NCBI GenBank assembly: GCA_902554335.1
Contig: CACDOD010000001.1
Coordinates: 39,596-103,595, forward strand
Reading direction: 5' to 3'
Source: an uncultured Pelagibacteraceae bacterium
Lineage (GTDB): Bacteria; Pseudomonadota; Alphaproteobacteria; Pelagibacterales; Pelagibacteraceae
DNA length: 64,000 nt
Both the position numbers and the translations under genes were made by a program. Under the pieces are notes generated by a model. The model searched no databases, was not told the origin of the DNA, and saw only the letters and a list, made by a program, of their open reading frames with translations. Of this stretch, positions 43,432-47,206 are shown piece by piece (position 1 is the stretch's first letter; the number at the start of each line of letters is the position of its first letter).

Positions 43432-43507
43432 GGAACCCTGGTGTAGCTGGTGCGCACGAACGCCTGAAAAGCGTTAGGACCTGGTTCGTTTCCAGGGGGT
43501 TCCACCA
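43432..43507 (+). tRNA. tRNA-Phe (GAA)
   Basis: GGAACCC/GGGTTCC acceptor, AACGC-CTGAAAA-GCGTT anticodon arm, CCTGG-TTCGTTT-CCAGG T arm, encoded CCA. Confidence 0.9.
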
Positions 43508-43814: not shown

Positions 43815-43999
43815 TTAATCATCAACATATTGTATAGGGATAACTCAGCAAAATATTGCTATTAGTATTCCTATACAATTACCCCTTGAATTTAAAAATT
43901 TAGGTGCTATTTAATCTGCGATGATTAAAAACATAAATTTATTTAAATCTACTCACAGACATCATTTTCATGCTGGCTGCACGCTAGCTATTTAATCAT
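43815..43999 (+). ncRNA. Candidate structured RNA / 3'UTR element with alternative helices (unnamed)
   Basis: ATTGTATAGGGATA (43829-43842) pairs with TATTCCTATACAAT (43866-43879); TTAATCATC (43815-43823) pairs with GATGATTAA (43920-43928); ATGATTAAA (43921-43929) can alternatively pair with TTTAATCAT (43991-43999). Confidence 0.45.
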
Positions 44000-44047: not shown

Positions 44048-44122
44048 GCTGCCGTCGTATAATAGTTATTACTCCCGCCTGTGGAGCGGGCTATCTTGGT
44101 GCAATTCCAAGCGGCAGTACCA
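44048..44122 (+). tRNA. tRNA-His (GUG), atypical
   Basis: GCTGCCG/CGGCAGT acceptor with A73, CCCGC-CTGTGGA-GCGGG anticodon arm, CTTGG-TGCAATT-CCAAG T arm, encoded CCA; directly upstream of hisS. Confidence 0.9.
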
Positions 44123-44125
44123 AAA

Positions 44126-45514
44126 ATGAAAAAAGAAAACAATTTAATACCCAGTCTTCCCAAAGGATTTAAAGATAGATGGGGAAAAGAATTAGCTTTA
44201 AAGAAAAAGTTATTAAAAATTATTGAGGCTAATTTTACAAAATATGGATTTTTACCATTGGAAACTTCTCCAATGGAAATCAGTGAAAACATAGGATCAT
44301 TTCTTGCAGATGATGATGCTAATCCTATGTCTGATGTATTTACATTTAAGGATGATAAAGAAACTTTAACTCTTAGGTATGATATGAGTGCACCTCTGGC
44401 ACGGTTCGTTGCACAAAATTATAGAGATTTAACTTTTCCTTATAAAAGATATACTTTTGGCGATGTATTCAGGAGAGAAAAACCAGACAGCGCGAGGTAC
44501 AGATCATTTACGCAGTTTGACGCAGATATTATCGGAAATGTAAATGAATCACAGGCAGATGCAGAAATTTGTGAAATTATTGGTGAAACCTTTTTAAGTT
44601 GTGGTCTTAAATCAGATCAATTTACAATAAATGTTTCTAATAGAAAGATTGTTCAAGGGCTTATTTCTAAACTTAAAATAACAAGTGAGCAAGAGCTAAA
44701 AGTAATAAGAGCAATTGACAAGCTTGAAAGAATTGGAATGGATGGTGTTAAGGACCTTCTTCAAAAAGAAAGAAAAGATGAGAGTGGAGCTATAACTAAA
44801 GGTGCAAATCTAACAAATGATCAAGCATCTCAAATAATTGAATTCCTAAAAATAAAAGACATAAAATCTTTAAAATCAAATATAAAAAATAACATCTCTC
44901 AAGAGGGGATTAAAGAAATAGAAGATTTATTTAATATATTATCCAAAGGAAAATTTTCAAATATGGTTAAAACCAATTTTAATATTGTCAGGGGACTAGC
45001 TTATTATTCTGGTTTCTGTGTTGAGACTAATTTAAATTTTAAAGGAAAAAATGTAAAAGGGAAAGAAATAGATATAGGGTCTTGCGCATCAGGCGGAAGG
45101 TACAATTCTCTTATTAAAAGATTTAAAGGTGTTGATTTTAAAGGCACAGGAATGTCTATTGGTGTGGATAGATTAGTATTTGCACTAAATCAATTAGATC
45201 AGTTCAAAGAAGATGACGGTAACAATATTCTAGTTTGTGTTTTAGATCCAAGCTATATGGATCAATATTATAAAATAGTAAACGAACTGAGAGAAAATAA
45301 TATTAATTCTGAAATATATCTAGACTCTACCAAAAATCTTAAAAAACAATTAACTTATGCGGATAAAAAAGGTTGCTCTCTTGCAATTATTTGTGGCCAA
45401 GAAGAAATTGAGCAGGGCAGATTAACAATTAAGAAATTAAAATCTAAAAAAGAAAACGATCAAATATCAATATCTTCAAAAAATTTAATAAATGAAATCA
45501 AGAAACTTATTTAA
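44126..45514 (+). CDS. hisS: Histidyl-tRNA synthetase
   Basis: LTLRYDMSAPLARFVA, FGDVFRREKPDSARYRSFTQFDADIIG, class II HisRS; start placed at MKKENNL since the ORF-track start lies inside the tRNA. Confidence 0.95.
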   Translation: MKKENNLIPSLPKGFKDRWGKELALKKKLLKIIEANFTKYGFLPLETSPMEISENIGSFLADDDANPMSDVFTFKDDKETLTLRYDMSAPLARFVAQNYRDLTFPYKRYTFGDVFRREKPDSARYRSFTQFDADIIGNVNESQADAEICEIIGETFLSCGLKSDQFTINVSNRKIVQGLISKLKITSEQELKVIRAIDKLERIGMDGVKDLLQKERKDESGAITKGANLTNDQASQIIEFLKIKDIKSLKSNIKNNISQEGIKEIEDLFNILSKGKFSNMVKTNFNIVRGLAYYSGFCVETNLNFKGKNVKGKEIDIGSCASGGRYNSLIKRFKGVDFKGTGMSIGVDRLVFALNQLDQFKEDDGNNILVCVLDPSYMDQYYKIVNELRENNINSEIYLDSTKNLKKQLTYADKKGCSLAIICGQEEIEQGRLTIKKLKSKKENDQISISSKNLINEIKKLI

Positions 45515-46529
45515 AATTCTTAAATCCAAAGGTTTTAAGAATATTGAGTTAGACAATATTATAGAGTCAAAATATGTTCTTAAAAGATCAGGAGGAAGTT
45601 ATAGACAATTTCTATTTTCTTTTTATGATCAGAACTTAAAAGAATGGTCATTAGTACCTGATTTATCTGTTAGCAGTGTTGTTAAGTTTATTCAGAATAA
45701 AATTAAGTCAAAAACAAAATGGTTTTATACCGGAGAGGCTTACCGTAAACAAAATAAAAATAATAATTCTCCTATAATCAACCAAACTGGTTTCGAAATC
45801 TTTGCTTCTAATAATAAGATAAAAGATGACAAAGAAATAATACAAACATCTATTGAAATATTTAAAAAATCAAATTTTAAAAAAGGTCAATTAAATATCA
45901 GTAACATTGAAATATTTAATGCATTAGTAGAAAGGCTTACCTTAGCAAGGCGTTGGAAGGACAGAATAAAAAGACATTTTTGTAGAGAAGCATATTTTAA
46001 TCAATTATTAAAAAAACTTTCGAGCAGTACAGACATAGATCCAATCGCGGTAGAGAAAGATAAAAAAATTGCTGAAAAACTAAGAAAGCAAAATCTTAGC
46101 ACTTTATATTCCGGTAGAACTCTTAAAGATATTTTAGAACGTTTTGATTTAAAAAATTATAAAGAACCAAGATCTGGAACAGATAAAAAAAATGTTAGAG
46201 TTATAAAAGAATATCTTAAAATTTCTTGTCCAATAGACAAAGCTCCAGATACATTAAACAAGTTTTTTAAAAAATATAAATTAAATTTATTCATTAGTGA
46301 CGACTATTTTCCTGTAGGTTCAAACAACAATATAAGAATAAAATTTTCAGCAAATATAAATCGATCTCTCGAATATTATTCAGGAATGGTTTTTAATATT
46401 TCAGTTAACAAAAAGGGTAAAAAAAGTGTGCTAGTATCCGGTGGCCGTTACGATGGATTACTAAAAAATCTTGGTAGTAAAAAAGATACATCAGCGGTTG
46501 GTGCAGCTATAGATATGAGTTTATTATGA
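45492..46529 (+). CDS. hisZ: ATP phosphoribosyltransferase regulatory subunit
   Basis: HisRS-like catalytic domain without a full aminoacylation set (WFYTGEAYRKQ...QTGFEIFASN); between hisS and short-form hisG. Confidence 0.85.
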   Translation: MKSRNLFKILKSKGFKNIELDNIIESKYVLKRSGGSYRQFLFSFYDQNLKEWSLVPDLSVSSVVKFIQNKIKSKTKWFYTGEAYRKQNKNNNSPIINQTGFEIFASNNKIKDDKEIIQTSIEIFKKSNFKKGQLNISNIEIFNALVERLTLARRWKDRIKRHFCREAYFNQLLKKLSSSTDIDPIAVEKDKKIAEKLRKQNLSTLYSGRTLKDILERFDLKNYKEPRSGTDKKNVRVIKEYLKISCPIDKAPDTLNKFFKKYKLNLFISDDYFPVGSNNNIRIKFSANINRSLEYYSGMVFNISVNKKGKKSVLVSGGRYDGLLKNLGSKKDTSAVGAAIDMSLL

Positions 46530-47206
46530 AAAATGAAATAATTAACATTGCTACTTTATCTAAAGGTCGTCTAAAGGATCAGGCTGAAAAAGTTTTTAAA
46601 AAAAATGGTTTAAAAATTATTTCAAAATCAGAAAGATCATTAATTGGATCGATCAAAGGATTTCCCAATGTTCGTGTAATGTATATGAATGCAACAGAAA
46701 TTATAGAAGCCTTAGGAAAAGGTGTTTGTGCGATTGGGATTAGCGGAAAAGATCTATGGAGAGAAAGTGAGCCTAGCATTCAATCCAAAGTATCTTTAGT
46801 AAAAGAGTTTGAATGGGGAAAGTCCGATCTAGTAGTTGCTGTTCCAACTACTTGGATTGATTGTATAAATTCTGCAGATTTAGAGGAAATATCTTTTGAG
46901 TTTTATAAGAAAAAGAAAAGACTAATGAGAGTTGCAACAAAATTTAAGAACCTTAGTAGAGATTGGTTTAATGAAAAAGGAATTACTCAATATGAACTTA
47001 TCTCGTCTCTTGGGGCAACTGAAAATTCACATATAATTGGAAAATCAGATCTTATCGTTGATTTGAGCTCAACAGGTGAAACATTACGTCAAAATAACTT
47101 AAAAACTATTGAGGTTATTTTAAAGTCATCTGCATGTCTTTTTACTTCTAAAAAGTTAAAAAATAAAAAAGAGGTAAAAAAAATTGTAAAATTACTTTCT
47201 AAATAA
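46526..47206 (+). CDS. hisG: ATP phosphoribosyltransferase, short form
   Basis: IATLSKGRLKDQAEKVFKKNGL, DLIVDLSSTGETLRQNNLK; 226 aa short form consistent with hisZ. Confidence 0.93.
   Translation: MKNEIINIATLSKGRLKDQAEKVFKKNGLKIISKSERSLIGSIKGFPNVRVMYMNATEIIEALGKGVCAIGISGKDLWRESEPSIQSKVSLVKEFEWGKSDLVVAVPTTWIDCINSADLEEISFEFYKKKKRLMRVATKFKNLSRDWFNEKGITQYELISSLGATENSHIIGKSDLIVDLSSTGETLRQNNLKTIEVILKSSACLFTSKKLKNKKEVKKIVKLLSK

Follow-up and report, generated by a model that had tools for sequence, protein, structure and literature searches.

The tRNA-His gene and its surroundings

Within the window, the whole 64,000-nt stretch of Pelagibacteraceae DNA analysed here, a tRNA-His(GUG) gene (44048..44122, + strand) ends 3 nt before hisS, which encodes histidyl-tRNA synthetase (HisRS; 44126..45514, +; ATG at 44126; TIGR00442, 345.6 bits). 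The next gene after hisS is a hisZ-like gene for an ATP phosphoribosyltransferase regulatory subunit (45492..46529, +), and hisG (ATP phosphoribosyltransferase) is encoded at 46526..47206 (+). Upstream of tRNA-His lie hisD and a tRNA-Phe(GAA) gene (43432..43507, +), a common upstream neighbour that has G18/U55 here and A18/G55 in several congeners. The T-loop of this tRNA-Phe, TTCGTTT, places U58 opposite U54, and its D-arm is unusual. A terminator-like hairpin is located at 43972-43988, between an upstream small gene and tRNA-His, and a promoter scan 5' of tRNA-His found nothing on the + strand. The first-pass annotation had drawn the tRNA feature from 44048 to 44126; its start stands, but the tRNA stops at 44122 and 44126 is already the A of the hisS ATG.

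ARAGORN called tRNA-His(gtg) at 44048-44122 (+), and Rfam RF00005 matched 44048-44119 with 53.3 bits (E 2e-10). Re-reading the sequence showed that the base assignments made earlier for this gene were right, as was the earlier view of the organism as SAR11-like. The acceptor stem joins 5' GCTGCCG with 3' CGGCAGT, giving a G1:U72 pair, the base at -1 (44047) is A, the discriminator is A73, and the CCA end is encoded. The D-arm, GTAT-AATAGTTA-TTAC (44057..44072, +), contains a U13:U22 mismatch as well as A18 (44064) and G19 (44065), the register being taken from relatives. Following a 4-nt variable loop, the T-arm (44095..44111, +) has the stem strands CTTGG and CCAAG around the loop TGCAATT, a UGNRA-type T-loop with U54, G55, C56, A57, and A58. 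Thus, the canonical elbow contacts G19:C56 and U54:A58 are retained, whereas A and G occupy the positions of the canonical G18 and U55 (Psi55).

The genome is a MAG-like draft of 919,700 bases in 46 contigs, and this exact tRNA-His is known from one genome only. It is the single tRNA-His among the 20 tRNAs found in the draft, which is 70% complete, so that a second, canonical copy may lie elsewhere.

Linkage of tRNA-His and hisS

A same-strand tRNA-His was called by ARAGORN just 5' of hisS in 118 of the 122 Pelagibacteraceae hisS loci, and in 115 of these 118 the spacing to the first in-frame start codon is 3-6 nt. Of the remaining four loci, one lies at a contig edge; at the other three (G003, G017, and G063) a tRNA-His is present as well, but its T-loop, AGCGTAA, caused ARAGORN to overlook it. 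tRNA gene finders are thus themselves affected by such variants. The adjacency is therefore found at all readable Pelagibacteraceae loci (121/121), whereas no upstream tRNA is found within the available flanking stretch at 28 hisS loci of alphaproteobacteria outside this family. Tight tRNA-hisS linkage, as proposed in the first-pass annotation, is real and conserved, but it does not join with positions 18 and 55 to extend the picture of histidine identity: it is a Pelagibacteraceae trait, specific among the sampled genomes and independent of the 18/55 state.

Some further features of these loci deserve mention. In L029, L035, and L036, a 74-nt tRNA-His with the T-loop AGCGTAA, missed by ARAGORN, lies about 5-80 nt 5' of hisS and shares its whole T-arm sequence with the tRNA-Val of the window genome. 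The usual distance of 3-6 nt between the tRNA 3' end and the hisS start codon would leave almost no hisS leader after tRNA processing. Within the window's genus (L027-L051), there are HisRS clades that share only some 45-50% identity with the window's HisRS, and two tRNA-His architectures, of 75 nt and 77 nt. Together, the HisRS clades and the two architectures suggest an exchange of the tRNA-His-hisS unit.

Histidine identity at the acceptor end

The acceptor end is uniform across the family. G1, U72, and A73 are present in every one of the 118 Pelagibacteraceae tRNA-His genes that ARAGORN called next to hisS; all of these genes end in ...TACCA, and only one has G at -1. The motif-2 loop of the window's HisRS, RREKPDSARYRSF, is of the A73 type (R.EKPGPGR). 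It resembles RNEKPGPGRxRxF, the form in one group of alphaproteobacteria (L533-L547), and differs from the RGERxQxGR type of the other (L549-L560). Some alphaproteobacteria are known to combine A73 with the lack of G-1 and with a HisRS whose motif-2 loop co-varies, and the histidine determinants in Caulobacter are A73, U72, and the anticodon (PMC9976931). The earlier assignment of A73 without G-1 to this known alphaproteobacterial variant was thus correct, and the G1:U72 pair belongs to it as well, U72 being a Caulobacter determinant (PMC9976931). This part of the finding, with A73, U72, and no G-1, is not new but follows the histidine rule already known from alphaproteobacteria. The anticodon, A73, and U72 would be read by the A73-type HisRS as in other A73-type alphaproteobacteria, and the 18:55 swap would have no role in charging.

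Distribution of the A18/G55 swap in SAR11

The 18:55 state varies independently of this uniform acceptor end. G18/U55 is found at 112 of the 121 Pelagibacteraceae tRNA-His loci, and the genes with A18/G55 are the window's, those of all five readable genomes of genus g9, and those of G003, G017, and G063, which have A54/U58 in addition. One of the g9 genomes, G022, matches strain HIMB114 (L212), with the same tRNA. The D-loops of genus g9 (AGTTAGTTA) and of g5/g12 (AGTTGGTTA) are of equal length and differ by a single G-to-A change, supporting the A18 register, and in g9 this change at position 18 always comes with the change from U55 to G55. On the HisRS tree, the A18/G55 tRNA-His fall in several places; the three with A54/U58 are scattered among canonical neighbours on well-supported branches, and the closest relatives of the window's HisRS (G109 and G043) go with canonical 77-nt tRNA-His. 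This scatter points to repeated change or to tRNA gene exchange.

The swap is also not restricted to tRNA-His, being found in six SAR11 isoacceptors (His, Phe, Val, Arg, Thr, and Tyr). In the tRNA-Phe upstream of hisS, 11 of 49 genes have A18/G55, and a pattern search found many more. tRNA-Val(GAC) with both A18/G55 and A54/U58 is present in the window genome and in several Pelagibacteraceae genera (L021:125-199, L490, L513-L516, L518-L523, L525-L527, and L531). A18/G55 was further observed in a tRNA-Val(GAC) with T54/A58 (L087), in tRNA-Arg(ACG) (L064), in tRNA-Thr(GGT) (L091), and in tRNA-Tyr (L088-L090). The 48 distinct SAR11 tRNAs that were assigned comprise 34 with G18/U55, 14 with A18/G55, and none with a mixed state (Fisher test of G/A at 18 versus U/G at 55, relatedness ignored, 2e-12).

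A18/G55 beyond SAR11

A strict pattern covering the D-arm and T-loop matched 4 of 385 alphaproteobacterial genomes, all of them Pelagibacteraceae. A restriction of A18/G55 to SAR11 was nevertheless rejected, as wider scans recovered it from many phyla and from viruses. A related pattern, run on bacteria and archaea with each species represented by a single genome, returned at least 117 stretches, and 106 of the matches listed were confirmed as tRNAs. This pattern left out anticodons with A36 to keep tRNA-Phe from swamping the list, and the resulting list of taxa is a sample. Among the matches listed are tRNA-Gly(UCC) of Streptomyces and tRNA-Met, tRNA-Thr, and tRNA-Arg of Patescibacteria, along with tRNAs from Verrucomicrobia, Elusimicrobia, Planctomycetes, Acidobacteria, Micrarchaeota, and other DPANN.

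The covariation also holds in tRNAs that the search had not selected. Again among the matches listed, the non-selected tRNAs in the stretches from named genomes have G18/U55 (n = 110), A18/G55 (n = 46), G18/C55 (n = 4), C18/G55 (n = 3), or G18/G55 (n = 1), and the Fisher test for G/A at 18 versus U/G at 55 gives 4e-39 (relatedness ignored). The non-selected tRNAs on viral contigs comprise 401 G18/U55, 89 A18/G55, 9 G18/C55, 6 U18/U55, and one each of U18/G55, A18/U55, and U18/C55; 89 A18/G55 tRNAs thus stand against a single A18/U55 (2e-98 in the same test, relatedness ignored). Positions 18 and 55 change together beyond chance in every sampled set, the Fisher values being a gauge only of how strong the association is, and this bears out the earlier suggestion of a compensated pair. 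Unrelated tRNAs and lineages have acquired the swap time and again, each time with both positions changed to match.

The viral contigs L353, L362, and L402 encode large tRNA sets in which many members have A18/G55, in some cases together with A54/U58. Other natural 18:55 states were seen in Patescibacteria and Verrucomicrobia, namely G18/C55 (L114, L136, L187, and L219) and C18/G55 (L126).

The Psi55 synthase TruB

Variability was also found in the enzyme that forms Psi55. In a profile search of 147 Pelagibacteraceae genomes, TruB (TIGR00431) was found in 28, all belonging to genera g5, g7, g9, and g12. It was found neither in the window's genus, complete genomes included, nor in genera g1, g2, g3, g4, g6, and g8. 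Pfam PF01509 agrees with TIGR00431 on 14 genomes. The truB gene is located between rbfA and rpsO in L230, L232, and L236, whereas rbfA (labelled from its translated sequence) abuts rpsO in L231, L233-L235, and L237-L242, where the truB slot is closed. TruB is encoded in 303 of 314 good alphaproteobacterial genomes (96%) and appears to have been lost from the window's genus. With this apparent loss extending to most genera of the family, SAR11 offers a natural knock-out of an enzyme common in Alphaproteobacteria. For TrmFO, a marker of m5U54, all 14 genomes gave only partial matches below the cut-off, probably to the related MnmG, and this marker was set aside.

Origin of the swap

The first-pass annotation placed A18/G55 in a set of histidine identity elements that co-evolved with a divergent HisRS, and saw in it an extension of the alphaproteobacterial histidine picture. 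Such a set would agree with the position of tRNA-His next to hisS, with the divergence of HisRS, and with the co-evolution of A73/U72 and HisRS motif 2 (PMC9976931). However, the same swap is present in the Phe, Val, Arg, Thr, and Tyr tRNAs of SAR11 and in many phyla and viruses, the large majority of SAR11 tRNA-His have the same linkage and A73/U72 but are G18/U55, and sister HisRS proteins go with both swapped and canonical tRNA-His. As A18/G55 occurs in other isoacceptors and taxa, we rejected it as a histidine identity feature, and this explanation is very improbable; the spread instead indicates a recurrent alternative elbow and not an adaptation to HisRS. Even less credit can be given to a sequencing or assembly error or a decaying pseudogene. 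Although the gene comes from a single, incomplete MAG and combines two odd positions with U13:U22, the two matched changes lie some 40 nt apart in a gene with complete stems, an encoded CCA, and intact linkage, and the same matched change is found in complete genomes and in HIMB114. It had been anticipated that canonical tRNA-His in other SAR11 would mark the change as an error or a strain quirk; most are indeed canonical, yet the strict covariation and the recurrence of the swap oppose an error.

Two other explanations concern how the swap came about. If the constraint on U55 was relaxed once Psi55 was no longer made, A18:G55 might have taken over after the loss of TruB, consistent with the six TruB-less genera, with the closed rbfA-rpsO slot in those examined, and with the many A18/G55 tRNA-Phe genes in TruB-less genomes. 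However, since the TruB-bearing genera g9 and g12 also have swapped tRNAs (His, Tyr, and Val), the swap is not simply due to TruB loss; this weakens it as the cause, and most tRNAs of TruB-less genomes are still G18/U55, leaving this scenario improbable. Alternatively, the swapped tRNA or its arms may have been acquired by recombination with other or phage-borne tRNAs, among which A18/G55 is common. The viral contigs with many A18/G55 tRNAs per set would offer a source, an identical 17-nt T-arm (GTAGGAGCGTAACCTAC) is shared by the tRNA-Val of the window genome and the tRNA-His of G003, G017, and G063, and the latter three are scattered on the HisRS tree. On the other hand, no donor was found for the window's tRNA-His, and in g9 the swap needs no more than point changes at the two positions, which makes recombination unlikely, if slightly less so than a consequence of TruB loss. 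Viral contigs containing the 16-mer of the window's D-arm were considered as a source and rejected, as ARAGORN called no tRNA-His with this 16-mer on them.

We therefore favour a recurrent alternative elbow: the window gene is very probably a working tRNA-His with an alternative 18:55 pair, the swap being recurrent and lying outside charging, and we infer that the tRNA is expressed and charged. As a variation on the tRNA elbow, A18/G55 is real and recurrent, and it seems to have attracted little notice. With somewhat more doubt, we lean towards A18:G55, sometimes together with A54:U58, being a second widely used elbow state with many origins in bacteria, DPANN archaea, and phages, which does not need Psi55 or Gm18 and alongside which the main SAR11 lineages dropped TruB.

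Elbow geometry and comparison with known systems

Residue 18 of a normal tRNA, intercalated between residues 57 and 58, forms a pair with Psi55 (PMC4810234). In UGNRA loops, which are T-loop-like, a composite turn of the GNRA kind is assembled from the loop G and an A outside the loop (PMC2258182). U54-G55-C56-R57-A58 is the typical T-loop sequence of the swapped tRNAs, which combine it with A18 and retain G19; R57 and C56 are also kept in the non-selected G55 tRNAs. At the level of sequence, TGCAA with A18 has the U-G-N-R-A and the intercalating outside A of this loop type. A18 would thus take the place of G18 between A57 and A58 and pair with G55, with G19:C56 and U54:A58 kept beside A18:G55; the U-G-C-A-A of the T-loop would adopt the UGNRA form, the outside A completing a GNRA-like turn, and with a base other than U at position 55, no Psi55 would be made. 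The retention of R57 and C56 fits a UGNRA loop, and by analogy a GNRA-like turn with A18:G55 probably holds the elbow together.

Psi55 has been called universally conserved and G18/U55 a conserved hallmark of tRNAs (PMC4810234, PMC7912444), and A18 does not appear in the T-loop review. A search of open-access full texts, with subscription papers outside its scope, found no description of a natural A18-G55/G55-A18 pair, and a single paper there names both truB and Pelagibacter. A18:G55 would be a working natural alternative to the "universal" G18:U55 feature, also in other tRNAs, bacteria, and phages, and the natural compensated pairs open the possibility of testing the 18:55 contact and the function of Psi55 with isolates and phages.

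Among known systems, the alphaproteobacterial tRNA-His and HisRS of the A73/no-G-1 type (Ardell and Andersson 2006; the Caulobacter pair) share A73, U72, the lack of a templated G-1, and the EKPGPGR-type loop with the window's pair. The acceptor end is what defines that group, which does not have A18/G55 among its features; moreover, the Pelagibacteraceae gene sits 3-6 nt before hisS, an arrangement seen at 0/28 of the other alphaproteobacterial hisS loci. The UGNRA T-loop of riboswitches (type R1 lonepair triloop, PMC2258182) has U54-G55-N-R57-A58 and an outside A in common with the swapped tRNAs, which differ in carrying it in the tRNA elbow, where Psi55 is regarded as universal (PMC4810234, PMC7912444). 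With the canonical elbow (G18:Psi55, G19:C56, and T54:A58), the swapped tRNAs share G19:C56, U54:A58, and the loop lengths, whereas their 18:55 pair is A:G, so that neither Psi55 nor Gm18 can form. The Steinberg group reportedly selected suppressor tRNAs from libraries with randomised D- and T-loops and asked which combinations at 18:55 and 54:58 work; A18-G55 may have been encountered there too. Those combinations were selected in the laboratory, whereas the ones described here are natural.
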